Shown: positions 6,299 through 41,678 of the stretch, piece by piece | How positions within the stretch are numbered: position 1 is the first letter of the stretch | Layout of the letters: each line of letters opens with the position of its first letter | DNA from: Mesorhizobium onobrychidis | GTDB taxonomy: Bacteria; Pseudomonadota; Alphaproteobacteria; Rhizobiales; Rhizobiaceae | Reading direction: 5' to 3' | NCBI RefSeq assembly: GCF_024707545.1 | Contig: NZ_CP062229.1 | Span: forward strand, 5,871,501 to 5,935,500 | DNA length: 64,000 nt | Position numbers and translations under genes: made by a program | The notes under the pieces: generated by a model | What the model was told of the DNA's origin: nothing | What the model saw: only the letters and a program-made list of their open reading frames with translations | Database searches by the model: none

Positions 6299-7099
6299 TC
6301 AGGATTTTTGGCGAAGGGCGACCATCAGGACGACGACCACAACAATAGCGGTCCACAATGTCGAGATCGCTGCAATGGTCGGATCGATCTGATCGCGCAG
6401 CGACACGAACATGAGCTTCGGCATCGTGCTGTTGCGACCACTTGCGACGAAGATCGAAATCACAGACTCGTCGAGCGACGTCAGGAAGGCCATCAATGTC
6501 GCCGACAACAAGCTGATCCGAAGTTGCGGAACGATTATTCCGCCAATAGCTCTGGCCCAGTTCGCACCAAGGCTACGCGCCGCCTGAACCTGGTTCCAGT
6601 CAAAGCGAGCCAGGGCGGGCAGCAACACAATGCACGCCACCGGAACGGCCAGCACCACATGTCCGACCAGCACACCGAACAACGTTCCGACCAAACGTTG
6701 TGCCGCCAGCACAAAAAAGAGGCCGATCGCAAGCAGGATTCCTGGGGTGATCGAGGGGGTGAGCAGGACGCTCTGGATGGCCGCAGCAGTCTTCCCACCG
6801 AGCCGATTCATTGAGATGCAGGCGAGCAGCGCAAAAGGCACCGCGATCAGCGCCGTCAATGTCCCAAGGATCAGGCTCGTCCTGAGTGCAGCCATCCACG
6901 TCGCCGAGCCGAAGAAGTTCTCGTACCAACGCAACGAGTAGGCGTGCGGCGGAAACTCGAGGAGATTCGACGCCGAGAAGGAAAGCGGCACCACCACGAG
7001 CGTCGGCAACATCAGAAATGCCATCACAAGAGCAGCAAAGCCCCAGAGGACAATGCGGGCCAGTCTGTTGTGCGGGTACGCCTCAAGCATGGGAGGCAT
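6299..7099 (-). CDS. ABC transporter permease, PotC-like
   Basis: An inner-membrane permease of the spermidine/putrescine class, about 266 aa with six predicted helices. The cytoplasmic EAA loop is seen in QAARSLGANWARAIGGIIVPQL. The frame opens with TTG at 7102; ATG 7099 or ATG 7090 are the realistic starts, overlapping the end of the upstream permease and implying translational coupling. It forms an operon with the second permease, the ATPase and the binding protein. Confidence 0.88.
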   Translation of the reverse strand: MPPMLEAYPHNRLARIVLWGFAALVMAFLMLPTLVVVPLSFSASNLLEFPPHAYSLRWYENFFGSATWMAALRTSLILGTLTALIAVPFALLACISMNRLGGKTAAAIQSVLLTPSITPGILLAIGLFFVLAAQRLVGTLFGVLVGHVVLAVPVACIVLLPALARFDWNQVQAARSLGANWARAIGGIIVPQLRISLLSATLMAFLTSLDESVISIFVASGRNSTMPKLMFVSLRDQIDPTIAAISTLWTAIVVVVVLMVALRQKS

Positions 7100-7970
7100 C
7101 AACTGTGTTCTGGGCCAGCAGGCGGCGTGCCGCCAGCAACATCACACCGATCAGCGCCATCAGAACGAGGAGCAGAATGCCCAGGACGCTCGCCGACCCC
7201 CAATCCTGAAAGGTCGATAGCGTTCGCTCGATCCGGGTAGAGAGAGGATTTACCTTGCCGCCGCCAAGCACCGCCGGCGTGATGAAAAAACCTATGGAAT
7301 AGATGAGAACGATGATCGAACCCGAGAAGATGCCGCCCGCCGAAAGTGGCATTATGACGGTGCGCATCACCTGCTCGAATGTGGCTCCCATGCTCGCTGC
7401 CGCGCGAATGAGGTTTTGGTCGATATCGCGCATCGCGGCATAAACGGGCAGCAGAAAGAGCGGCAGCATGTAGTGAACCATGCCGATCAGCGTTCCGGTG
7501 AAGTTATAGACCAGCGGCAAAGGCTCCGCCGTCAGGCCCGAACCGGTCAAAGCCGCGTTGATCAGGCCATCACGCCGCAAGAGCACGAGCCAGCCATAGG
7601 TGCGCACCAGGATAGCGGTCCACAATGGCAGCATGACGAAGGCCATCAGTACGTTGGCCACCCTTGGTCTGACGCTGGCCAGAGCGAGTGCCAGCGGGGT
7701 GCCTAGAAGAATGCAGATCGCCAGCGTGCCGAGGGACAGTTCAAGGGTCGTGACGAGCGCCGACCATGTCAGTCCGCTCGAAAGCACTTTCGCGTAGTTG
7801 CCGACAGTGTACTCACCCCCTGTGGTCAGGAAAGATTGCCGGATGATCCAAAGGATGGGCAGTATCGCCGCCAGTCCAACGATGAACAGCGCCGGGAGCG
7901 AAAGCGAAAGGAAGAATCGCCGCTCGCGTCGCGCATCTGCGGCGAGCGCAGGATCCGGAGTGACGGTCAC
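7083..7970 (-). CDS. ABC transporter permease, PotB-like
   Basis: The partner permease, 295 aa, with six or so hydrophobic segments and the EAA-type loop AAASMGATFEQVMRTVIMPL. The GTG start at 7970 overlaps the TGA of the ATPase gene by four bases (GTGA), a strong coupling signal that decides the start. It pairs with the PotC-like permease to form the membrane channel. Confidence 0.88.
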   Translation of the reverse strand: MTVTPDPALAADARRERRFFLSLSLPALFIVGLAAILPILWIIRQSFLTTGGEYTVGNYAKVLSSGLTWSALVTTLELSLGTLAICILLGTPLALALASVRPRVANVLMAFVMLPLWTAILVRTYGWLVLLRRDGLINAALTGSGLTAEPLPLVYNFTGTLIGMVHYMLPLFLLPVYAAMRDIDQNLIRAAASMGATFEQVMRTVIMPLSAGGIFSGSIIVLIYSIGFFITPAVLGGGKVNPLSTRIERTLSTFQDWGSASVLGILLLVLMALIGVMLLAARRLLAQNTVDASHA

Positions 7971-10270: not shown

Positions 10271-11269
10271 ATGGCCAATCTAAAGCAGATCGCGGCGGAA
10301 CTTTCCCTCTCGGTGACCACGGTGTCCCGCGCTCTGAAGGATGGGCCGGAAGTGCAGCCCTCGACCATAGCCCGCGTCAAGGAGGCGGCTAAGCGGGTCG
10401 GCTACCTGCCAAATCATCATGGTCTTGCGCTCAAAACCGGTCGAACGCTGATGCTGACGGCAGTACTCCCGATGGAGACACGAGACCATCTCTCCGATCT
10501 GTTGAAGCTTCCTTTAATCGAAGGCATGACGCTGGCGGCGCGGCAAGCCGGTTATAGTCTGTCCATCTATTCCACCACTCCCGACGACGATCCCGTCGAG
10601 AGTGTTCAGCGGCAGCTTCAGGCGCGCAGCACAGACGGACTGATCATCACGCGCTTGGTGTCGGGTGATCCGCGCGTCAAGCTGCTGCTGGACAAACGCA
10701 TGCCATTCGTCGCGTTTGGAAGAACCGACCTGGATACCGCGTATCCTTATGTCGATGTCGACAATGAACAGATTGCCTACGAGGCAACCCGACGGCTCAT
10801 GGATAAGGGCTGTCGACGCATTGCACTGCAACTTCTGGTTCCGGAGGATCAGGCAAGTGCCATGCGTCTTTCCGGCTATGGAAGGGCAATGGCCGAGGCC
10901 GGTATTCCGATCGACCAATCGCTGATCGGTCATGGCATGTTCACCATGGAATCGAGCGCAGCCTGGTTCGATCGCTTGCTGGCTTGTTCAGATCCGCCGA
11001 CAGGCCTGGCATGCGCCAACGAACTGGGCCTTCTAGGGGCGTTACACGTTCTCGGCAGAAGAGGTCTTGTGCCGGGGAGCGACGTCCACATTGTTACTCG
11101 TGACAGCACGCGGCTGGCACGCTTCCTGCCGGCAAAGATCGGAATTCATTCCGTGGACATGGCGGGTGTTGGACGCAAACTTATCGAAGTCCTGGAGAGC
11201 CGGATCATCAATCCGCTTGGGCCGATGGAGACAGTCTTGATGCAAGGCAGATTCGAGCCGGCCGAATAG
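10271..11269 (+). CDS. LacI-family transcriptional regulator
   Basis: A 332-aa repressor with an N-terminal helix-turn-helix (LKQIAAELSLSVTTVSRAL) and hinge helix, followed by a periplasmic-binding-protein-like effector domain (about 60-330). The frame is open back to 10178, but LacI proteins begin just before the HTH, so ATG 10271 (MANLKQIAAEL) is preferred; ATG 10220 would place O2 across the start. It is divergent from the ABC/nucleosidase operon, whose promoter region carries a matching palindrome, so it is the probable local regulator. The effector is unknown. Confidence 0.92.
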   Translation: MANLKQIAAELSLSVTTVSRALKDGPEVQPSTIARVKEAAKRVGYLPNHHGLALKTGRTLMLTAVLPMETRDHLSDLLKLPLIEGMTLAARQAGYSLSIYSTTPDDDPVESVQRQLQARSTDGLIITRLVSGDPRVKLLLDKRMPFVAFGRTDLDTAYPYVDVDNEQIAYEATRRLMDKGCRRIALQLLVPEDQASAMRLSGYGRAMAEAGIPIDQSLIGHGMFTMESSAAWFDRLLACSDPPTGLACANELGLLGALHVLGRRGLVPGSDVHIVTRDSTRLARFLPAKIGIHSVDMAGVGRKLIEVLESRIINPLGPMETVLMQGRFEPAE

Positions 11270-11527
11270 TCTGCCCGTAGGTTCAATCAACCGACCTAGG
11301 GACGGCGAACCAACCTCGCGTGGTTGCTTCGCGGCGCAACCGATCGCCGCAATCCCACAACTGTCCCGTCGAGCGAAGCACGTACATTTCGACCGAAGGG
11401 AAAGGCCCGCTTATGGACGCAAGGCGACCGGCGAGACAAGTCGAATAGACTCCGGCAACCCCTGATTGTATTAGCCGCATTTCTGTGGCGCCGAGCGATA
11501 CCGCTTGGCTGCAAAATGCTCTGGACA

Positions 11528-12310
11528 TCACTCGACCGGGGCCGTGCCGACCTGGCCGGCGACTTCCTGATCCAGCTCGGTGAGGAAATCCACGATGCGG
11601 GCCGCATTGTCGCCAAGGTCGTAGCGGCCATAACGTGTGGCCGAACGCATGTCGACAATGACTGCATCGCCATCGTCGGTCACACGGATGGCGACGTCGG
11701 CGGGAAGGCTGAGGAGGAAGCTCTTGGCCAGGGCGTTGATCGTCACCTCGCTTTGCCCGATCGCACGGGGAAACGCCGCCGTTAGCTGCCAATCCCGACG
11801 GTCGAGCACGGTTTCGACTGCCTCCAGGACCCGATCGAAAGGCAGATTGTAGCTGCGTCCGGTGACAAGCGGATAGGTCTCGGTCTGCAGGCGCTGCTCG
11901 CCCGGGGTCGGTGGCGAAAGCGCGTTCATATCCCCGGTCCGGGTGCTGGTGTCGAGCACCGGCGGATCGTCGAAATCCGTCGAGATATCCCTGAGCGGCG
12001 GAGAAGTCGCTGCCCAGTAGGCAGCGATACCAAAGGGAGCAAGCACCAGCAGTGCCAGCAACGTGCCGACGGTGATATCGCGACCGCCACGGTCGCCGAA
12101 ATTCCACAGTCTCGAAAAGGCAAATCCGGCGAACAGCAGCGCAAAGGCGGCAAGCAGCGCGACAATGCCGAGCACCCAAAGGAAAGCCGGCGTTTCAACA
12201 AGCTCATATCGGTGGCCGACGAGAACGGTCAGGAGCAGGACCGCCGAAAAAGCGCCTGTCCGCCGCGACCAGCCGGCCGCCCTCGACGTCTGTCGCTCGG
12301 GATTTTCCAT
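11528..12310 (-). CDS. DUF1499 domain-containing membrane protein
   Basis: A 260-aa protein of unknown function. After a short N-terminus there are three hydrophobic segments (about residues 18-110), then a C-terminal DUF1499 domain with YNLPFDRVLEAVETVLDRRD, RVTDDGDAVIVDMRSATRYG and DLGDNAARIVDFLTELD. The frame is open much further upstream, but that stretch is antisense to the CoA-ligase gene. ATG 12310 (MENPERQTSR) is the natural start. The 258 bp after its stop hold nothing I recognise. Confidence 0.85.
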   Translation of the reverse strand: MENPERQTSRAAGWSRRTGAFSAVLLLTVLVGHRYELVETPAFLWVLGIVALLAAFALLFAGFAFSRLWNFGDRGGRDITVGTLLALLVLAPFGIAAYWAATSPPLRDISTDFDDPPVLDTSTRTGDMNALSPPTPGEQRLQTETYPLVTGRSYNLPFDRVLEAVETVLDRRDWQLTAAFPRAIGQSEVTINALAKSFLLSLPADVAIRVTDDGDAVIVDMRSATRYGRYDLGDNAARIVDFLTELDQEVAGQVGTAPVE

Positions 12311-29177: not shown

Positions 29178-30512
29178 ATGATGTCTTCGTTTTCGATCGT
29201 GAATCACAAGATTGATCCTAAGCGAGGCGCAACGGCACTGAAGGCGGACGGGACCATCGACAACAACGATCGGGTGGAAATCGGCCCGACTGATGTAGCT
29301 TTTGCTGAATGGGAGCAGCTAGGACTCACTGCCCCTAACGTGGAACGGATGAGGAAAACCCGGCTAAACCGCATCGTGCAACAGCTGCGCCAACGGGATT
29401 ACGCCGGCGTGCTTTGTTTCGATCCGCTGAACATTCGATACGCGACCGACTCCTCGAACATGCATATCTGGACCATGCACAATCCGTCGCGAGCCGTGTT
29501 CGTGTCAGCGGATGGGTATGTCGTTCTCTGGGACTTTCACCGCTGCAGTCATCTTTCGACTTACCTGCCGCTCATCAACGAAATCCGAGACGGTGGGGCG
29601 GGCTTCTACTATTTCGTTGCCGGCGATGCAGAGGAACCAATCGCCAAACAATTCGCGGGGCAGATCGATGAATTAATGCGACGCTGTGCCGGCAAGAACC
29701 GACGTCTTGCCGTCGACAAAATCGAAATTCCCGGCCTGCGCGCGATGGAACCAGTCGGCATCGAGGTCTGCAACGGCATGCAACTCATGGAGCATGCGAG
29801 GGCCATCAAGGGTATCGACGAGATCAACGCGATGCGCTGCTCGCTAGCCACATGCGAAATCGCCGTTGGCAAGATGCGCGAGCGTTTGCGGCCAGGCATA
29901 GCCGAAACAGAATTGTGGTCGGTTCTTCATGCCGAAAACATCGCCCGCGGCGGCGAGTGGATCGAAACGCGCATTTTGACTTCCGGCCCACGCACAAACC
30001 CGTGGATGCAAGAAGCCGGCCCTCGACGCATAATGCCAGGGGATCTGGTCGCCTTCGACACCGACATGGTCGGGCCTTATGGCATGTGTGCGGATTTTTC
30101 GCGCACTTGGTATTGCGGCGACGGCAGGCCAACCGACGAACAGCGAAAGCTACACGCCATCGCCTACGAGCACGTGATGACCAACATGGCCATGCTCAAA
30201 GCTGGAGTATCATTCAACGAACTAACCGAGCGCGGCCACAAGCTCCCTGCCGAGTTCGTGGATCAGCGATATGGCGTCATGATGCATGGCATCGGTCTAT
30301 GCGACGAATATCCCGCGATCCTCTATCCCGAAGACTTTATCCCGGGAGCATTCGACTATGCTCTCGAGCCGGGGATGACGTTGTGCGTTGAGGCCTATAT
30401 CGGTGCCGTTGGTGGCCGTGAAGGCGTAAAGCTCGAAGAGCAGGTTTTGATCACGGACAGCGGTTTTGAAAACCTGACAAAATGCCCATTTGATCCGGCT
30501 TTGATTATCTAG
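29178..30512 (+). CDS. dddP: DMSP lyase DddP (M24 peptidase-fold)
   Basis: A 444-aa M24-fold protein that should cleave dimethylsulfoniopropionate to DMS and acrylate. Using start ATG 29178, the metal ligands fall at D294, D296, D306, H370, E405 and E420, each exactly one less than the ligands I recall for characterised DddP (295, 297, 307, 371, 406, 421). D376 matches the catalytic Asp377. The N-terminal domain has VEIGPTDVAFAEWEQLGL and WDFHRCSHLSTYLPL, segments special to DddP rather than to aminopeptidase P. It is next to a GlxA-type regulator and corrinoid methyl-transfer genes. A non-DMSP onium substrate remains possible. Confidence 0.85.
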   Translation: MMSSFSIVNHKIDPKRGATALKADGTIDNNDRVEIGPTDVAFAEWEQLGLTAPNVERMRKTRLNRIVQQLRQRDYAGVLCFDPLNIRYATDSSNMHIWTMHNPSRAVFVSADGYVVLWDFHRCSHLSTYLPLINEIRDGGAGFYYFVAGDAEEPIAKQFAGQIDELMRRCAGKNRRLAVDKIEIPGLRAMEPVGIEVCNGMQLMEHARAIKGIDEINAMRCSLATCEIAVGKMRERLRPGIAETELWSVLHAENIARGGEWIETRILTSGPRTNPWMQEAGPRRIMPGDLVAFDTDMVGPYGMCADFSRTWYCGDGRPTDEQRKLHAIAYEHVMTNMAMLKAGVSFNELTERGHKLPAEFVDQRYGVMMHGIGLCDEYPAILYPEDFIPGAFDYALEPGMTLCVEAYIGAVGGREGVKLEEQVLITDSGFENLTKCPFDPALII

Positions 30513-30922
30513 GATTGTCCGTCTGACCGGGATGAGCACGCGCACCAGAAAGTTGATGCCTCCTCAAATTTTTCCTAAAACCGACTCTAGTGTCCGAATT
30601 TGTCCCATAAGCACACGCAATTCGGGCTGAGGCGCGATCCAGAAAGTTCGAAAAGCTTCCAGGCGCCCCAGCCATCGCTCACAGTGTCTGTTCCGGACAC
30701 ATGTGTAATGCGACAGTTGAGCAAGTTAAATGCGACAGCGCTCTCGCGGCACGCTACGCCGCTGCCAGCTTGACAGCCTCGTCCCCAATGCCCATCAGAC
30801 GATGTCAAAGCTTGCGGTGAACGCAGCAGCGAACAGACGGCCAGGCCCGAACGAATGACAACAATCTGCCAGAGCGCCGGGTCCCGAGGGCGTGGTTGGA
30901 TCTCTGCAACGGAATTCTAGTC
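30513..30922. other. 410-bp region without an intact gene; left boundary of the lasso cluster
   Basis: Between dddP and the nucleotidyltransferase gene lies a degenerate repeat (30598-30738) related to 53400-53568. Beyond it, 30739-30922 shows no recognised element. The base composition changes here toward the less GC-rich style of the lasso cluster. Confidence 0.55.
30598..30738. repeat. Degenerate repeat R1', copy of 53400-53568
   Basis: It shares blocks with 53400-53568: gttcgaaaagc, ccccagccatcgctcacag, ttccggacacatgtgta, and a pair of tgcgacag words at the right end. A minus-strand frame reads CERWLGRLEAFRTFW, close to CERWLGFLDAFRTFC in the other copy, so both are remnants of one gene family. 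There are many substitutions and indels, so the copies are old. Confidence 0.7.
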
Positions 30923-32074
30923 ATGCAGGGAATTGACGAGCTGCTTTGCGCCACCTTACGTCGCGAAAATCCGAATTGGCCGGAATACGGCGACAATAAT
31001 TTCGTGGACCGCTTCATCGAGCGAAGTGCTTATCACGGGGTACAGGCGCTGCTTCATCATTGTATTGCAGATCGCGAACGCGGTGATCTGGGTTGGCCGG
31101 AAGTTATCCTAGCTACTTGTCGTCAGCAGGCCACCGCTCAAGCATTGTGGGAGATGCGCCACCAGTATTTGCTGAATCAAGTACTGGAGCGGCTCGTGGC
31201 TATTGGCATCCATCCAATTCTGTTCAAAGGCACGGCCCTAGCCTACGATGTCTATCCGGCGCCTTTCCTGCGTACAAGAGGTGACACGGACCTCCTCGTG
31301 CCGTCGGACAGCCGTGATCGGGTGGCAAAAGCACTAGAAGCCCTGGGGTTTCGTGAACTGGGAATAAGAGCGGATGTCATTAGCGGTCAGACGAGCTATA
31401 GTTGGACAGATCCCTCCTCCGATCAGCAACACACGCTCGATTTGCATTGGCGGATCGCCAATTCCACACTCCTGTCAAATCTGTTCTCGTATGAAGAATT
31501 GCGTTCCGAGGCCCGGCCACTGCCGAACTTAAGCGCGAATGCCCTCGCAGCTGATCCAGTGCACGCGCTCGTGCTCGCCTGCATGCATCGAGCGGTCCAC
31601 AAGCACGCTTTGTATTACGTCGATGACGTGGCCCATTATGGCGGCGATCGACTGATCTGGTTTTACGACATTCAGCTTCTGTTTTCGATGCTATCGCCGT
31701 CGCAACGCAATGAATTTGTTGAACTTGCCGAGCGTAAAGGATTGCGGGCGACCTGCCTGGACGGCATCGAGGCGACCCGAGCCCGTTTTCATACCACTAT
31801 ACCCGAAGCCGTGTCTGGCGCGCTTTCCCGTCCTGGACCGACAGAAACCGCGTCGGGCTATCTCAGCGGACCCAGGTGGTACCGAATATGGATGGACTTC
31901 CAGGCCGCGACAGGCGTGCGAAACAGGTCCGGTTTTCTGGCCGAACTCCTCTTCCCGCCGGCAATCCACATGCGGCAAAAATATCGCCAGGCAAACCTAT
32001 CGTGGCTGCCTTGGCTCTACTTACGCCGGGCCCTAGCCGGGTCTTTGAAGTATTTACGCAGCCGGGATAGTTGA
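30923..32074 (+). CDS. Nucleotidyltransferase-family protein of the lasso cluster (PF14907 type)
   Basis: A protein of about 383 aa resembling the uncharacterised nucleotidyltransferase family often found with lasso-peptide and PqqD-containing clusters. The key segment is PILFKGTALAYDVYPAPFLRTRGDTDLLVP, which includes the DxD of the active site. A helical C-terminal half contains histidine-rich LACMHRAVHKHALYY. It might nucleotidylate the peptide or a partner; no activity is established for this context. The TTG at 30896 also opens the frame, but ATG 30923 is preferred. It is followed 115 bp later by the exporter. Confidence 0.8.
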   Translation: MQGIDELLCATLRRENPNWPEYGDNNFVDRFIERSAYHGVQALLHHCIADRERGDLGWPEVILATCRQQATAQALWEMRHQYLLNQVLERLVAIGIHPILFKGTALAYDVYPAPFLRTRGDTDLLVPSDSRDRVAKALEALGFRELGIRADVISGQTSYSWTDPSSDQQHTLDLHWRIANSTLLSNLFSYEELRSEARPLPNLSANALAADPVHALVLACMHRAVHKHALYYVDDVAHYGGDRLIWFYDIQLLFSMLSPSQRNEFVELAERKGLRATCLDGIEATRARFHTTIPEAVSGALSRPGPTETASGYLSGPRWYRIWMDFQAATGVRNRSGFLAELLFPPAIHMRQKYRQANLSWLPWLYLRRALAGSLKYLRSRDS

Positions 32075-32189
32075 GTCTCTCTGCGGGCGCGTGATTCCGA
32101 AATCGTAAGAAATTCTACCGCAGTTGAGGATGCAGCCTGCCTCTTGGTGCTCACTCCAGCAGATCACCTCGATCGATCTCTTTGGAACT

Positions 32190-33869
32190 ATGAACAGATT
32201 GTCGAAAATTAGTGAGACAAACATGCTGCTGACATTAGCGGCACCTTATCGCCTGGCGTTGGCCGTTGGCCTGATATTGATGCTATGCGAAAGCGCTGCT
32301 TTGTTGGTTATGCCTTGGCTTGGTGGCAGGCTTGCTGAAACGTTTCTCCAGGAAAGCGCAGGCAGCAGCACGATCAATATCCAGGTGCTTTTTCTAGGAG
32401 CATTGGCGCTGTTTGCGGTTCAGGCCGTTTTAAAATTCAGCAATATATACCTGCTTGGTGGGACGACCACACGAATACTGGCAGACTTGAAAATCCGAGT
32501 TTACGACCATCTTCAGGCCTTACCGCTTGCTTTCTCCCACCGGCGGCGTCACGGCGATACGCTCGCGTTACTTACTCATGATGTGTATGTCGTGAGCGAC
32601 TACATCAGCGGCACCGCACTTGCTGCCTTGCCGCTCTTCTTCACCGTCAGCGGGGCATTGGCTTTAATGTTCCGAATCGATTCTCTTCTCGCTATGTTCG
32701 CCGCAATCATTATTCCATTGCTCTATCTACTGCTTAAAATTTTCGGACGACGCATGCGGCCATTGGCTCTCCAACTTCAGGAGGAGCACGCCATTGCCAT
32801 CGCCATTGCTGAGGAAAACCTCAGCATGCTTCCCGCCATCAAGACCTTCACGCGCGAACAGCAAGAATCGCAGCGTTATCGGAGCCAAATCGAGCGCGTC
32901 GTCAGCCTGAGCGCCAAGGAGCGCGCCATCCATGCCGCATTGGGGCCGGGGGTTCAGTTTGTGACGGCGACCGCGGTCGTTCTTATGCTTTGGTTGGCCC
33001 AAGGGCAAATTGGCGATGGGGCTCTCACCGTGCCTCAATTGGTGAGTTTTCTCCTCTACGCCCAGGTAATGGCGCGGCCGATGGCCGGGCTCGCAGATGT
33101 CTATGGACAGACCCAGCGCGCGCGCGGCGCGCTGAGCCGGCTCGCAACAGTCTTGGCCGAAGAGCCTGAGCCGAGCTGGCATGCGGGCAAGCAGATGGGA
33201 AAAATAAACGGCAACATCGAATTCCGCAGTGTCACGTTCAGTTACCCGGGGCGCGAGCCTGCATTGAGGTGCCTCGATCTATCCGTCGCCGCGGGCGAGA
33301 CAATAGCCATCATAGGTCCCAACGGTGCAGGAAAGAGCACGGTGGCGCATTTGCTTATGCGATTGCATGAGCCTTCCAAGGGAAGCATCTTCATCGACGG
33401 CGTGGATATTTCCACGGTTTCCTTGCATAGCCTGCGCAGCCAGATAGGGGTTGTGCCTCAGCACGTGTTACTGTTCAACGCCAGCGTCCGCGACAACATC
33501 GCATATGGGCGGCCTGAGCCCACACAGCATGACGTCGAGGCAGCAGCACGGTCGGCCCGCGCGCATGATTTCATCATGCAACTGCCGCAGGGCTACCAGA
33601 CGCCAATCGGCGATCGCGGCGTGCGGCTGTCCGGAGGGCAACAGCAGCGGTTGGCGTTGGCTCGGGCGCTGCTGAAAGATCCGCCGATTCTGATACTCGA
33701 TGAAGCGACCGCTATGTTCGATCCAGAGGGGGAGCGCGAGTTCTTGCAGGCATGCGTGGATGTGCTGCGACAGAGGACGGTGCTTTTGATAACCCACCGA
33801 CCGGCGAGCCTGGCGCTGGCTGATCGGGTGTTCAAGCTGGACGAGGGCATTATGACAAGCGCCGAGTAA
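32190..33869 (+). CDS. ABC exporter, fused permease and ATPase (lasso-peptide D protein)
   Basis: A half-transporter of about 559 aa. Six transmembrane helices (residues 10-300) precede an ATPase with Walker A GPNGAGKST, signature LSGGQQQRLALARALL, Walker B LILDEATAMFD and H-loop LLITHRPASL. It lacks a C39 peptidase domain, as expected for McjD-type lasso exporters where leader removal is done by B2. It should export the mature peptide and give self-immunity. The frame opens at TTG 32124; ATG 32190 gives a natural N-terminus. Confidence 0.9.
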   Translation: MNRLSKISETNMLLTLAAPYRLALAVGLILMLCESAALLVMPWLGGRLAETFLQESAGSSTINIQVLFLGALALFAVQAVLKFSNIYLLGGTTTRILADLKIRVYDHLQALPLAFSHRRRHGDTLALLTHDVYVVSDYISGTALAALPLFFTVSGALALMFRIDSLLAMFAAIIIPLLYLLLKIFGRRMRPLALQLQEEHAIAIAIAEENLSMLPAIKTFTREQQESQRYRSQIERVVSLSAKERAIHAALGPGVQFVTATAVVLMLWLAQGQIGDGALTVPQLVSFLLYAQVMARPMAGLADVYGQTQRARGALSRLATVLAEEPEPSWHAGKQMGKINGNIEFRSVTFSYPGREPALRCLDLSVAAGETIAIIGPNGAGKSTVAHLLMRLHEPSKGSIFIDGVDISTVSLHSLRSQIGVVPQHVLLFNASVRDNIAYGRPEPTQHDVEAAARSARAHDFIMQLPQGYQTPIGDRGVRLSGGQQQRLALARALLKDPPILILDEATAMFDPEGEREFLQACVDVLRQRTVLLITHRPASLALADRVFKLDEGIMTSAE

Positions 33870-33965: not shown

Positions 33966-34244
33966 TCATGCCTCTTCAATCTTGACCAGCCCCTGGCGTT
34001 CGAGCGTTTGCAACAAGCTGAATACGTCTTTCTCCAAGGGCGCAGGCTCGACCTCGTACTCGTCGAGCATAGTTCCGCAGATTTCGCCTACGGTTTTTCC
34101 TTCGGACAGCAGTATCCAGATACGTGCCCCGACCGGGTCCAGCCCAAAATACGTTCCGCTGGCGAGATCCAGGATCACCGTCTCCTTGCCCACCTGTCGC
34201 GCCATCACTTGCGCCGGAATCGCCACTCTGTCAGTCAACTTCAT
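33966..34244 (-). CDS. PqqD-family RiPP recognition element protein (lasso B1)
   Basis: A 92-aa stand-alone PqqD-like protein. LDLASGTYFGLDPVGARIW is the hallmark strand-turn-helix of the family, followed by LSEGKTVGEICGTML. In lasso clusters such B1 proteins bind the YxxP leader motif and present the precursor to the B2 protease and cyclase. Its start overlaps the end of the kinase gene by 14 bp, so it is translationally coupled to it. It is now separated from the other biosynthetic genes by the IS21 insertion. Confidence 0.92.
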   Translation of the reverse strand: MKLTDRVAIPAQVMARQVGKETVILDLASGTYFGLDPVGARIWILLSEGKTVGEICGTMLDEYEVEPAPLEKDVFSLLQTLERQGLVKIEEA

Positions 34245-35067
34245 GCTGGTTCACCTTATACGCGTGTCTCACAATGGCCCGCCTGACCCGCGACAGGTCT
34301 TCAAAGCGTCGGGGATAATCCAGGCGGTAAAAAATTGGTTGCCCAGCCAGGCAGGATAATTCATCGAAATGGGCGGCAAGCAGTTCGTGTGCCTCAATTT
34401 CGAGTAAGAAAGAATGCTTCACTAGTTCCATCAGAGCTTCGCGCCCAGTCATACCCTCGAACACCGCTTCCTGCTGGACACCATCGCCAAGAAAATACAC
34501 CCGGCGTAAGCGCCGGGGTTGCTCGCAGAAGACGATCTCATCGCCCGCAAGAAGACGAGCCTTCGACGTGAACTGCACCGGGGGCGCTTTCCGTACACCA
34601 TCCTTGCCGACCAAGGCTTCCTCACTGTCTCCCCATAAGCGGATCGAAGGATGGCTCGGCATAATCCGAAACCCACCGTCGCAAGGCTCTAACAGCAGCC
34701 CATCATCCGTCAGGAAGCGGAACCCGTCGGTTGCGAAGCTTGCCGCCAGCGTGGACTTGCCTCGACCTGACCCGCCGATAAATGCGATGCCCTCGCCGCT
34801 GATTTCGACCGCGCTGCCGTGCAAAACCAGCTTCCCCTGTCTGCTGAGCGCCAAGGGCAAAACCTGATTCAGATAAAGATGCTGAATGGTCGCGTCGGAG
34901 ACTCCCTGCACCGGCCATGCTTGGATCTGTCCGCCATCTTGGCTCAGCTGGAAATCCGCCAGTTCGGGAAAACGCAGCAGGTAGGCTCCCCCGATGCGGT
35001 AGAAGTCCGTCCACAAAGTCCCGTCTGGAAAAACCCACTGGTGAAACAAGGTGGCGTCAAGCGGCAT
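34231..35067 (-). CDS. HprK-like kinase of the lasso cluster (5' end displaced by IS21)
   Basis: A 278-aa protein with an HPr-kinase-type P-loop, FIGGSGRGKSTLAASF (K104), preceded by LHGSAVEI with the conserved His83. HprK homologues in lasso clusters phosphorylate the peptide (paeninodin type). The current first Met (35067) lies 12 bp from the IS21 left end. Removing the IS and one target copy restores a longer frame: MTVDFQVADARPQ joined to MPLDATLF, beginning with an ATG that overlaps the methyltransferase stop (ATGA). The gene has therefore lost its native start and coupling, though an in-frame ATG remains. Confidence 0.88.
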   Translation of the reverse strand: MPLDATLFHQWVFPDGTLWTDFYRIGGAYLLRFPELADFQLSQDGGQIQAWPVQGVSDATIQHLYLNQVLPLALSRQGKLVLHGSAVEISGEGIAFIGGSGRGKSTLAASFATDGFRFLTDDGLLLEPCDGGFRIMPSHPSIRLWGDSEEALVGKDGVRKAPPVQFTSKARLLAGDEIVFCEQPRRLRRVYFLGDGVQQEAVFEGMTGREALMELVKHSFLLEIEAHELLAAHFDELSCLAGQPIFYRLDYPRRFEDLSRVRRAIVRHAYKVNQHEVD

Positions 35068-35217
35068 TTGAGGGCGGGTGTCGATACCGGATCAATACTC
35101 CCCAGAAGTGCCGTTTGAATCTTCCCCAGTTTAGCGTTGCCGCCGGTCTTCCGGGGCGCGCCCCGGAGGACCGGCGGCACGTCATCACCGATACTGCTCT
35201 CGATGGTCGAGAGGGGA

Positions 35218-37364
<2,147 letters not shown>

Positions 37365-37445
37365 TTGGGGAATTTTACTTCGGCACTTTTGGGGAAATTT
37401 CACCCGGTATTGACAGGCGGGCGTCCGCCACTTGAAAGTCCACCG

Positions 37446-38576
37446 TCATTCCGTGTCCTTGCCCAGCACTTGGGCGACAAATCGCGCTGTTTCTTCCACG
37501 GAAGGGAACAAGCCGGGGTGTTCGCGCAGCACGGCTTCTTCAACCTGCCTGACGGTCCTTTGACCATCGCAAAGCCCTAGCACGATCATTCTTGCCTGCC
37601 CTCGGCAATTGGGTCGGGGCACATGCGCGGGATTCCGTTTCATGATCTCGGCCGGCGTCTGCAACTCGCCCTCCCAGGTCGAATGGCTGAATTTCCGCCC
37701 TCCGGACGGGATTTCGACTTCCCAGGCGATAACCGAATCCGTCGGACGCGCCACCACCCTCGCCCTCACCACATCGCCGGATTTTACCTCGACGGCTTCG
37801 GCGATGGGCAGGAAAGCCTGAGAGCGCTTGATTGGACGATCGGCAAGCGGCGAGTTCGTCAACCACACCCCTTCGGCCAACTCACAATCGAACCAGCCGC
37901 CGAGTCCGCGCAGGACGCCATCGCGTTCTATGCGCAACTCCGCATCCCAGGAGAAAAAGTCCGGATTGTCTTCACGAAAATCGATGCTGCCCAGCTCAGC
38001 GGGGGCGCCAAGCAATTCTTCCCGCTGAAGATTGACCGCATGCTTGGTGTTGACGGCGTATTGGCGCAGCCAATGGAATTCGCTGGGTACGCCCTCTCGC
38101 CGCCACCCGTCGGCCAAGCCGCAACTGGTTTCCGATTCCACTGCGGCGAGTTGAAGCCTGAGCCTGGCGGGGATCAATGCCCCCCCTGGCTTCAGGAAAC
38201 GCCGCCTGGCGTCCGCCAAATATTCGATGATGCCGGCATCAAAGCCGAAGTAGCCGACTTGATCGCAGATCACCACATCAACCCGTTCGGGCAATTCAGC
38301 CCGCGGAGAGTAGTCCCCCATGAAAATCGCTCGGCCACCCCAGCCTGCGCGAACGAAGGATTCCCGCGCGACCTCGATCATGGCGGTTGCGTCGATGGCG
38401 TACACACGGGACGCGCCCGCCTGCAAGCACAACAGCCCCAGAATCCCGGTGCCACAACCGAGATCCGTGATGCAATCCCCATGTTTGACCACTTGGGCAA
38501 CAGCGGACTTGAACTGTTCAAGTCTTACCGAATCGCTGACATACCCCAAGTGTTCCGCCAGCACGGAACTCGACAT
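37446..38576 (-). CDS. PRMT-like methyltransferase fused to a C-terminal PqqD-like domain
   Basis: A 376-aa fusion. Residues 1-325 form a class I SAM methyltransferase like protein arginine methyltransferases: motif I ITDLGCGTGILGLL (D38-G44), YAIDAT for SAM ribose binding, and a beta-barrel-like C-half. The PRMT double-Glu loop is altered (CDQVGYFGFDAGIIE), so arginine is not a safe substrate guess. The last 50 residues (LGLCDGQRTVRQVEEAVLR) resemble the helical part of PqqD and may dock the leader. The gene follows the precursor by 13 bp and its TGA natively overlapped the kinase ATG. It is a candidate peptide-modifying enzyme. Confidence 0.8.
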   Translation of the reverse strand: MSSSVLAEHLGYVSDSVRLEQFKSAVAQVVKHGDCITDLGCGTGILGLLCLQAGASRVYAIDATAMIEVARESFVRAGWGGRAIFMGDYSPRAELPERVDVVICDQVGYFGFDAGIIEYLADARRRFLKPGGALIPARLRLQLAAVESETSCGLADGWRREGVPSEFHWLRQYAVNTKHAVNLQREELLGAPAELGSIDFREDNPDFFSWDAELRIERDGVLRGLGGWFDCELAEGVWLTNSPLADRPIKRSQAFLPIAEAVEVKSGDVVRARVVARPTDSVIAWEVEIPSGGRKFSHSTWEGELQTPAEIMKRNPAHVPRPNCRGQARMIVLGLCDGQRTVRQVEEAVLREHPGLFPSVEETARFVAQVLGKDTE

Positions 38577-38589
38577 TCCCCCGCACGGC

Positions 38590-39006
38590 TCAGTGAACAG
38601 AGGGGCGCCGTATCCTCAGCATGCCGTAGTTCACCATCTTGTAACCGTCAGGATGAACGCTTACGGCTTCCGGCATAACCGTCTCGACCTCGTCGGCCAT
38701 TACACCAAACTGTCTGCCAAGGCCCCACTGTTCGCGGTATTCAGGCTTGTAGTCGAACAGATAGAGGCCGATTCCAAGCGAATGGGTGCCAATGCGGATG
38801 ACGTTCTCTTTGGCGCGCGGGTCGGAAACCATAGCCATGGTGCCGCCCCCATCTACGCTTCCTGCTCCGGCGCCTCTAGTTATCGCGCTTACGGAACCGT
38901 AGATTTGCAATGTGGGAGTCGAATAGGGCGCCTTGTTTGGCTCGGCAGCTTTGTTTTCAACGGTGAGGTGGGATGGCGTCTGCTGGTCGTTCAGATTGCT
39001 TTTCAT
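38590..39006 (-). CDS. Lasso-peptide precursor with C-terminal S74 intramolecular chaperone domain
   Basis: A 138-aa precursor. Residues 28-45 fit the lasso leader consensus YxxPxLxxxGxxxxxTxG exactly (Y28, P31, L33, G37, T43 at -2, G45 as core residue 1). The core GAGAGSVDGGGTMAMV has Asp at position 8, the acid needed for an 8-residue macrolactam ring. From S61 the sequence becomes a peptidase S74 domain: SDPRAKENV, LGIGLYLFDYKP, GRQFGVMADEVE and HPDGYKMVNYGML. S61 and K66 have the Ser/Lys spacing of the S74 self-cleavage dyad, so cleavage before S61 would free a 16-residue core. It lies between the cyclase and methyltransferase genes. A stand-alone phage tail protein is unlikely here. Confidence 0.88.
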   Translation of the reverse strand: MKSNLNDQQTPSHLTVENKAAEPNKAPYSTPTLQIYGSVSAITRGAGAGSVDGGGTMAMVSDPRAKENVIRIGTHSLGIGLYLFDYKPEYREQWGLGRQFGVMADEVETVMPEAVSVHPDGYKMVNYGMLRIRRPSVH

Positions 39007-39180
39007 TAACTCGGACCTTTACGCTGGCTTGGTATCTCTCAGGAAACCGTCAGATGAACTATCTGGACGTTCTCGGTGACTTTTGAACAAGATCGGCACC
39101 TTGGCACCAAGCGAAAACGGGCGCAACCCTGACGTCCAGCATTCATCGAACATTGAACCGACGTGACGATCAAGACACGT

Positions 39181-39272
39181 AACGGTACGTTACATGTCTT
39201 CAACGGTACGTTACAAGGCATCCATTAACAGTACGTTATATGGCATCAACGATACGTTACATGGCATCCATA
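39181..39272. repeat. Nested tandem repeats over the 3' end of the cyclase gene
   Basis: Two 46-bp units (39181-39226 and 39227-39272), each holding two copies of a 21- and 25-bp variant of aacggtacgttacatggcat. Read on the minus strand the copies echo the last codons of the cyclase (CHVTYR, then CHITY, CNVPLKT, CNVPLRV). The copy nearest the gene carries its stop. This is local duplication of the gene end, lying between the cyclase and the precursor. Confidence 0.85.
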
Positions 39273-41126
39273 AATACTCCACAAAATCCATTTCGGCATG
39301 CCGGCCTGTGAATTGTCTCGATAAGCCCGGAATAGCCGGGCCATCCCGTCCCGATCAACCCAGGTGCTACGCTCATGGGGAATCGTCTCGGTCAATATGG
39401 CTTGCATCCGGTCCAGATGCTCACGGAACACGATCGAAAATTCTGCCTTGCTTTTCCGTTCGAGGATCGTCTTCGGCAGGAGATTCTTCAAAGCTTGGAC
39501 ATGGATATATTTGGATGTATCCCCACGCAGCCGCAGCCTTTCCGGTAGCGAAAACGCATACTGAACGAGTTTGGGGTCGTGGAGCGGGTATCGCATTTCG
39601 ATCCCGCAATGGGCGCCCATGCACTCAAGATCCTCCATCGCCTGGGCAGTATAAGCATCGTATAGAGGCTCAAGTAGCGCCCTCTGGCCGACGCTGCGCA
39701 CTCGCCGATGGTGTGCTGGGAGAATACGCTCGCGACGCAGCCGGATCACTTCCCCCATCCGCGGCGAGAGCCAGTAGCAGGCGTTGCTGGTCCCGCTCCC
39801 GCGCACCCTACGAACCAGGCGGCGGAGACCCTCCTGGAGAGCGATTGGCAGTAGCCGGAAAAACCCCTCCCGTATGAGCCAACTCACCGCCTGCCGCGTG
39901 CCGAATGCAGCCGCGTCGGTTTTGAGGCAGTCATAGAGCGTACGCAAATGCACTTGCGCCAGTGCCTCTGCGTAATACGCACGGGAGCCTTGCAGCCATT
40001 GATCTCCTCCGTGACCGTTCAACGTAACGCGGCTCCCGTGCGCAACGGTTTGCTGCCATAGGCCGGCATGCATTGACAAGTTCGGAAACCCCGGAAACTG
40101 CCGGCCGGACCGGGCGCGTTCCGCAAACCATGAAAGAGGCATCCTGGAAGGGGGAGTCTCATGAACCCGGAGCCCTAAATACTCACCCACGGCCCGCGCG
40201 TAGGGGAGTTCGCTGGCGCGGCCGTCCTCCTCCGTGAAGCCAAACGTGTAGCCATTTATGCCGTGTGTGAGCAGTCTGTTCGAGCGGCGCAGGTGTTCCG
40301 CCACGCAAAACACCGCGGAGGAGTCGAGTCCGCCGCTCACCTCAATGGCGACCGGCTGATGCGACCGGGACAAACGCCTGACGCACTCGAACAATAATTC
40401 GCGATAATGCTCTATGTATTCTTCGTCCTTGCGAAACGGCAACGTCGCCCAAAGATTCGGTTGCCAGTATTGTTCGAGTCGAGGCCCTTGGTTCCCGGCT
40501 ACCATTCGATGTGCTGCAATCAAGCGCAGGATACCGTTCCATAGAGTCTCGTCCCTGGAATACCATTCCCCCGCCAGCATTTCGGCCAACATGCCTTCAT
40601 TGGGTTCCTGCTTCACCCAAGGCAGCGCAAGGATCGCTGGCAGCTCTGAGGCGAAGGCCAGTGTTTTACCGTCCCAATGGTAATTGAAGGGCCTGTTGCC
40701 CATGCGGTCGCGGGCGCAAAAGGCCTCTTGTCGCCGCGCATCCCAGATTACCAGTGCGAAATCGCCGTCGATATGCGGCAAACATTCCCGCCCCCAAATC
40801 TGGTAGGCTCTCAGCACCAGTTCAGCATCCGAGCGATCTCGAAGTACGGCGCCGCGCCCCAGCAGTTCCCCCCGCAGTTCCTCCCAGTTGTCCACCCGCC
40901 CGTCCATGACCAGGACAAGGCTTGCATCCTCATTGGTCAGCGGCTGGGTTTCCTCCAGCGACTCTGGCGTGGTGCGAAGCATGCATTGACCGAGCCCGAT
41001 GGAGCCCTTCACCCAGTGGTGGATGCCATCCGGGCCCCGATGCGCCATAGCCGTGGTCATTTTTTCCACTAACCCGGGCTCCACCGGCTCACCGTCAAAA
41101 TGAATTATCCCGGCGATGCCGCTCAT
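39246..41126 (-). CDS. Asparagine-synthetase-like lasso cyclase (C protein)
   Basis: A 626-aa AsnB homologue expected to adenylate the core Asp8 side chain and close the macrolactam with Gly1. The N-terminal Ntn glutaminase-like domain begins MSGIAGI: the catalytic Cys of true AsnB is Ser here, so glutamine hydrolysis is lost. RGPDG and the later domain folds are kept. The ATP-pyrophosphatase loop is EVSGGLDSSAVF (residues 262-273), with NGHGGDQ and the C-terminal MRYPLHDPKLVQYAFSLPE. It lies 15 bp after B2 in one operon. Tandem repeats overlap its last codons. Confidence 0.93.
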   Translation of the reverse strand: MSGIAGIIHFDGEPVEPGLVEKMTTAMAHRGPDGIHHWVKGSIGLGQCMLRTTPESLEETQPLTNEDASLVLVMDGRVDNWEELRGELLGRGAVLRDRSDAELVLRAYQIWGRECLPHIDGDFALVIWDARRQEAFCARDRMGNRPFNYHWDGKTLAFASELPAILALPWVKQEPNEGMLAEMLAGEWYSRDETLWNGILRLIAAHRMVAGNQGPRLEQYWQPNLWATLPFRKDEEYIEHYRELLFECVRRLSRSHQPVAIEVSGGLDSSAVFCVAEHLRRSNRLLTHGINGYTFGFTEEDGRASELPYARAVGEYLGLRVHETPPSRMPLSWFAERARSGRQFPGFPNLSMHAGLWQQTVAHGSRVTLNGHGGDQWLQGSRAYYAEALAQVHLRTLYDCLKTDAAAFGTRQAVSWLIREGFFRLLPIALQEGLRRLVRRVRGSGTSNACYWLSPRMGEVIRLRRERILPAHHRRVRSVGQRALLEPLYDAYTAQAMEDLECMGAHCGIEMRYPLHDPKLVQYAFSLPERLRLRGDTSKYIHVQALKNLLPKTILERKSKAEFSIVFREHLDRMQAILTETIPHERSTWVDRDGMARLFRAYRDNSQAGMPKWILWSIYGCHVTYR

Positions 41127-41141
41127 ATCATCCCCATGGCA

Positions 41142-41678
41142 TCAACCAAAATTGCGCTTGAATGCGGAATAGCGCTCGCCAACATCGACCGTATCGTTAA
41201 GAACCCTGCCCCGGTATTCGACCCAAGCATGGGCTTCAAATTTGCCTTCAGCCTTCCGCGTGCCGATGCGCAGTTCTCCTTCGATGCCTTGCCGGCGCAG
41301 CAAAAACCAAAGCGTCATGGAGCGCTTCAGGCAGTTGCCGGAATATGAACCACGATACGCGGCAATGGATACCAAACGAGCGGTCTCTTGTGCCTGTCCA
41401 TAAAAATCGATCTCGCCACCCATTGAGTGAAGCCAGTCGGAGTTGCAAACTGCAACCGGAACGTTTGAAGGCGGCGGCGATTTACAAAACGTGAGTGACG
41501 GGTTTGCAACCCCCCTCACGCTTCGAAGATCGCAAATCCATATCAGTATAATTCTTGCACGTCGGAAACCAAACATCTGCAATACCATTGCAGTGAATGG
41601 TAACAGCAACATTGCAGCGATCACTGTCCTGCGTTGTGCGGCCGTCAGGGCAAGAAATTTTTTAAATCGATTGGTCAC
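41142..41678 (-). CDS. Lasso-peptide B2 leader protease (transglutaminase-like)
   Basis: A 178-aa B2 protein that removes the leader after the -1 residue. The cysteine-protease triad is visible as C116 (SGNCLKRSMTLWFLL), H150 (FEAHAWVEY) and D162 (GRVLNDTVD). The N-terminus has a hydrophobic stretch, and the RRE is supplied separately by B1, as in split B1/B2 systems. The start is GTG 41678. It appears to be the first gene of the leftward biosynthetic operon B2-C-A-methyltransferase-kinase-B1. Confidence 0.92.
   Translation of the reverse strand: MTNRFKKFLALTAAQRRTVIAAMLLLPFTAMVLQMFGFRRARIILIWICDLRSVRGVANPSLTFCKSPPPSNVPVAVCNSDWLHSMGGEIDFYGQAQETARLVSIAAYRGSYSGNCLKRSMTLWFLLRRQGIEGELRIGTRKAEGKFEAHAWVEYRGRVLNDTVDVGERYSAFKRNFG

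Follow-up and report, generated by a model that had tools for sequence, protein, structure and literature searches.

A lasso peptide precursor family with a phage-type S74 domain as its probable self-removing follower, examined from a Mesorhizobium onobrychidis gene cluster

Phage endosialidase S74 domains trimerise and cut themselves off just before a serine, which forms a dyad with a lysine five residues further on. Why would the precursor of a lasso peptide end in such a domain? The question is raised by an open reading frame in a stretch of 64,000 nucleotides from Mesorhizobium onobrychidis, hereafter the window, whose numbering is used below. The frame (38590..39006, minus strand, ATG start, 138 residues) is predicted to encode a lasso-peptide precursor with a C-terminal S74 domain. 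Its leader comprises residues 1 to 44 (38875..39006, minus strand); residues 28 to 45 match the motif YxxPxLxxxGxxxxxTxG and reach 19.8 bits with the NCBIfam model lasso_leader_L3 (NF033521), barely over the cut-off of 19, in agreement with the leader proposed in the initial annotation. The positions given there are also correct: Thr43 stands at -2, Gly45 is core residue 1, and Asp52 is core residue 8, an acid within core positions 7 to 9. The similarity of a family profile to the TbiA leader chain (5v1v_C) is weak, with an E value of 0.97. The predicted core, residues 45 to 60 (38827..38874, minus strand), reads GAGAGSVDGGGTMAMV with a predicted Gly1-Asp8 ring, a delimitation based on nucleotide identity and ring-acid counts. 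Residues 61 to 138 (38593..38826, minus strand) form the peptidase S74 or intramolecular chaperone (ICA) domain, in a short form without the C-terminal coiled coil. PF13884 (Peptidase_S74, Pfam) matches residues 61 to 115 with 29.5 bits against a cut-off of 22, which bears out an S74 domain starting at Ser61. The best PHROGs match is phrog_6121 (74.9 bits, residues 33 to 129), and the PHROGs matches are mainly phage tail and structural families. Ser61 (38824..38826, minus strand) is the predicted nucleophile, with a predicted cut between Val60 and Ser61, and Lys66 (38809..38811, minus strand) is the predicted general base of the dyad; the spacing of five residues claimed for the pair is found in the frame.

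The frame lies in a lasso gene cluster, as had been proposed, with genes for B1, B2 and the cyclase all present. The cyclase, a C protein of the asparagine-synthase type, is encoded at 39246..41126 on the minus strand (PF00733 and PF13537; NF033535 at 372 bits, under its cut-off of 525). The peptidase B2 (41142..41678, minus strand; NF033537, 72.4 bits, cut-off 33) gives the only B2 match found in the 7.55-Mb genome, and B1, a PqqD-type leader recognition element, is found at 33966..34244 on the minus strand (PF05402, 69.8 bits). Also on the minus strand are a PRMT-fold methyltransferase with an extra C-terminal helical part (37446..38576; predicted model and Foldseek, PRMT2/PRMT6 at E ~3e-26) and an HprK-related kinase (34231..35067), whose profile matches stay below the cut-offs of the models and which keeps a His/Lys/Asp/Asp motif, as mapped in this analysis. 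An ABC exporter (32124..33869, profile matches) and an NTP_transf_5 nucleotidyltransferase (30896..32074; PF14907, 111 bits) are encoded on the plus strand. An IS21 insertion with approximate ends at 35083..37415 on the plus strand (istA 35137-36486, istB 36483-37364, transposase and IstB above cut-off) sits between the methyltransferase and the kinase, and it may separate the genes for the kinase and B1 from their promoter upstream. In Mesorhizobium ventifaucium (locus L001) the same genes stand together, at 93.6 to 95.6% nucleotide identity, without the insertion; a short stretch of that locus, 11585-11594, aligns at both IS21 junctions. Upstream of the precursor, a tandem repeat at 39180-39271 (21 bp x 4, or 46 bp x 2) overlaps the end of the cyclase gene and differs between the two species; it may have a regulatory function or generate variation. 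The cluster is adjoined by a homologue of the DMSP lyase DddP (29178-30512; NF043017, 609 bits, cut-off 600), which was not found in 23 related loci as fetched.

Is this layout an accident, for example the chance joining, in a single strain, of a lasso leader to a piece of phage sequence? Three protein searches at E <= 1e-3 gave 1239, 1077 and 935 matches, and the best 120 of each were listed; the counts that follow come from an alignment of the 338 distinct proteins among these listed matches, the window's own included. The leader positions are almost fixed in the listed proteins, with Tyr in 334, Pro in 335, Gly in 334 and Thr in 334. Thr is missing from four proteins, three of which start 3 to 5 residues ahead of the S74 serine and one of which has Val. 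The ring acid, Asp or Glu, occupies core position 8 or 9 in 333 of the 334 listed cores, the one exception having it at 7, while two-residue windows of the core clear of positions 8 and 9, taken from 1-2 to 12-13, hold an acid in at most 19 of 334. Core lengths range from 13 to 37 with a mode of 17, and 328 of the 334 listed cores are distinct. Homologues thus keep both the YxxP leader and the ring acid, the point on which the initial annotation had staked its reading. A genome scan returned 23 loci, whose titles cover Alpha-, Beta- and Gammaproteobacteria as well as Cyanobium, and Caldilineaceae are present among the listed proteins. Near the precursor, each of these loci has at least one cassette gene: cyclase and kinase in 20, ABC protein in 19, B2 in 19 (15 at E <= 1e-5), B1 in 18, methyltransferase in 16 and nucleotidyltransferase in 15 (13 at E <= 1e-5). 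In every locus lacking a cyclase (L016, L018 and L023) or a kinase (L004, L005 and L018), no more than 0.9 kb separates the precursor from one contig end; this does not account for the lack of a B1 match in L016 and L023, whose open side is downstream. No lasso genes occur within ~9 kb of one further S74-type precursor, L055. The same S74 form does occur elsewhere, in phages and within large rhizobial proteins, as an accidental fusion would have it, but 338 listed proteins with a conserved core, ring acid and dyad, together with 23 loci with cassette genes, refute an accident, which we regard as practically out of the question. Lasso precursors followed by a phage-type S74 domain are a real family, spread over several phyla. 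We did not find this layout described in the literature searched, and where NCBI names listed members, they are called "tail fiber domain-containing protein," which the unusual length of the precursor may explain.

Among the genomes sampled, members of the family are few. At E <= 1e-15 it was found in 3 of 398 genomes of a phylum sample, and a genus sample yielded 3 of 146, the own genome being included in both. In all, 110 of the 146 genus genomes match at E <= 1e-3, and most of the other matches in the genus cover either the leader alone, in frames of ~50 to 89 residues, or S74 alone, in larger proteins. Several members can share one cluster, since a Dechloromonas locus (L010) carries three S74-type precursors with different cores (7059-7736, 10670-11101 and 11105-11533). 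Small rhizobial frames in two other loci (L046, 8893-9267, and L047, 8797-9141, both on the minus strand) begin with YxKPxL...G.LS.VTA and end in S74, and no lasso genes were found near them; they may represent another type of S74-bearing RiPP-like precursor.

Where does the core end? Between the window and the M. ventifaucium locus, nucleotide identity is 95.5% in the leader, 66.7% in the core and 95.7% in S74, so the core is variable between conserved flanks. In 231 cores from the listed matches of the first two protein searches, the tail methionine has a mean offset from the ring acid of +5.1, +5.0 and +5.5 for tail lengths of 7, 8 and 9, and its mean distance to the S74 serine is 2.9, 4.0 and 4.5; the near-constant offset means that over these lengths it tracks the ring more than the serine, and at lengths of 10 and 11 the offset drifts to +6.4 and +7.0. 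An ortholog from the genus (L061, 92 to 96% identity) has lost the S74 coding stretch by deletion, and its precursor ends ...TRGGSGSAVDGSMVTMN, a 15-residue core with Asp8 that stops where S74 would begin. The exporter reading frame there is disrupted too, a possible sign of decay, so either S74 is dispensable in this locus or the locus decays. A metagenome assembly (L019) has a stop codon at the serine position, leaving a 22-residue core with Asp9, and separate S74-less precursors have cores of 26 residues with Glu8 (L011) and 19 residues with Asp9 (L016). All four cores fall within the length range of the S74-type cores. The proposed core end before Ser61 is upheld by the point at which the S74-less ortholog stops and by the near-invariant dyad, in which Cys is the sole substitute seen for Ser. 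These relatives also bear on whether S74 is removed at all, as the product might instead be a small S74 protein capped by a lasso, its N-terminus cyclised and threaded. Lasso enzymes tolerate C-terminal fusions, and the window and L001 differ no more in S74 than in the leader, both of which would suit a retained domain; S74-less lasso precursors exist in the same kind of cluster, however, and the dyad is intact, and we consider a lasso-capped S74 protein quite unlikely.

Does the S74 domain cut? The serine position is Ser in 335 of the 338 listed proteins and Cys in 3, with nothing else, a Cys share biased upward since the third search was deliberately started from a Cys variant; Lys at Ser+5 is present in 338 of 338. 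The Ser-to-Cys swap would retain a nucleophile, and the invariant Lys together with a Ser replaced only by Cys is the strongest sequence argument for catalysis. Natural Cys-Lys variants of the dyad are L021 (9965-10399), P0235 and P0307. The S74-like fold itself is predicted for residues ~61 to 130, with strong matches to viral models and weak ones to the PDB; a Foldseek search of the PDB with the precursor model gave no match reaching E 1e-3, and PF13884 matches 111 of the 111 members of set A2 at E <= 1e-3. The 59 sampled lasso S74 domains form one side of a branch (97/95.8), with 19 others on the opposite side. By alignment to the MYRF structure 7dc3 (PMC8326128), Ser61 is the equivalent of MYRF S587; the structural alignment covers only residues 75 to 133 of the model against MYRF 606 to 678. 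According to PMC8326128 and PMC3742443, MYRF is cut directly before S587, the S587A and K592A mutants stay uncut, and cutting requires trimerisation via a C-terminal helix.

It is this helix that is missing here. With only 11 residues after Tyr127, the chain lacks the C-terminal helix by which characterised S74/ICA domains trimerise, and the predicted model has no helix beyond residue 114 and thus no C-terminal trimeric coiled coil. The trimeric scaffold suggested in the initial annotation is left unsupported, because the MYRF-type coiled coil that drives trimerisation, and that MYRF needs for cleavage, is missing from this protein. The Ser and Lys are likewise retained in the other S74 proteins examined, so conservation of the dyad could partly be heritage of the fold. 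These two are the strongest counter-arguments to catalysis. They would suit a catalytically idle follower, serving solubility or the docking of kinase and methyltransferase, that a host protease trims or that stays until B2 and C act, and tailoring enzymes are indeed usual in the clusters (kinase 20/23, methyltransferase 16/23). An idle domain is hard to reconcile, though, with a dyad whose Lys is present in all 338 listed proteins and whose other position is Ser or Cys in all 338, and the S74-less ortholog L061 ends at the same point. We hold the idle follower to be improbable, and self-cleavage before Ser61 to be the most likely role of S74, a probable one on the sequence evidence assembled here.

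The kinase adds a further question. It looks intact as far as its sequence goes: the complete motif is retained by 27 of the 28 kinases aligned. Characterised lasso kinases phosphorylate the C-terminal serine of the precursor, according to PMC9266682. In the family, 52 of the 334 listed cores end in Ser or Thr, 52 of the 334 listed tails contain neither, and the window's core ends in Val60; of the paeninodin-type features, the HprK-like kinase bearing His-Lys-Asp-Asp is present and the serine at the core C-terminus is absent, and the role of the kinase does not fit simply. The one near-invariant hydroxyl at the core end is that of Ser61. Could the kinase phosphorylate it, block self-cutting and so gate release? 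The known kinases target a serine at the core C-terminus (PMC9266682). Five of the leader-only loci of the same genus were examined (L048-L052); each encodes a lasso precursor lacking S74, accompanied by matches to B1, B2, cyclase, kinase and exporter, and these precursors end in ...LTFS, a terminal Ser in 5/5. Against such gating, 3 of the 338 listed members carry Cys at that position, and the conservation of Lys is better explained by protease chemistry; we think it very improbable. Methyltransferase homologues, found in 16 of the 23 S74 loci, gave no match in the five S74-less ones. An extended role for S74, unlikely to our mind, is that of a built-in chaperone and folding sensor, as in phage tailspikes, which would hold the core tail while the enzymes thread the peptide and close the ring, and cut only afterwards, possibly gated by the kinase on Ser61.

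The reading we prefer remains the self-removing follower. The S74 domain would fold and its Ser61/Lys66 dyad would cleave the Val60-Ser61 bond, freeing the C-terminus of the core; the leader would be held by B1, B2 would cut after Arg44, and the cyclase would close the ring around the tail. In this way B1, B2 and the cyclase would probably turn residues 45 to 60 into a lasso with a Gly1-Asp8 ring, and the predicted product is most likely this 16-residue lasso. Tailoring of the peptide may be the task of the kinase, the methyltransferase and the nucleotidyltransferase, and export would fall to the ABC protein. The probable origin of the follower would be the short S74 form that phages carry too. 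That form has the same short end in phage DNA-injection or ejection and structural proteins and in large rhizobial proteins: in all seven viral contigs, the two phage loci and the rhizobial loci looked at, the matched S74 is followed by at most 5 residues, the one exception being a plasmid locus (L032) with 38. There, in contrast to the lasso precursors, S74 ends larger proteins, and no cassette genes were found in the seven viral S74 loci; phage records matching the short form number 32 of 50,697.

Set beside other systems, the cluster is familiar in its enzymes and different in its precursor. Borosins and BURP-domain burpitides are RiPPs whose precursors are fused to a catalytic domain that installs the modification. 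Here too an enzyme domain lies within the precursor, but it would only release the core and not modify it. Compared with the S74/ICA domains of phage endosialidase and MYRF (PDB 3gw6, 7dc3), there is neither a C-terminal coiled coil nor a triple beta-helix in front, and the cargo is a 16-residue core in place of a trimeric fibre or a transcription factor. With paeninodin and pseudomycoidin (PMC9266682) the cluster shares B1, B2, cyclase, HprK-like kinase and ABC exporter, and with pseudomycoidin also the nucleotidyltransferase gene; the PRMT-fold methyltransferase is additional here, and while their precursors end in a phosphorylated serine, here the core ends in Val and S74 follows.

What would these precursors mean for lasso peptides? 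They would make up a sizeable, apparently unnamed branch of the class. If S74 cuts, it would be a traceless, self-removing C-terminal tag, usable for lassos with chosen C-termini, and the family is a small system for asking whether a short S74 domain without a coiled coil can cut at all. It also raises the question of cis-chaperoned lasso threading; should the chaperone role be true, lasso threading would gain a genetically encoded chaperone and a release switch.
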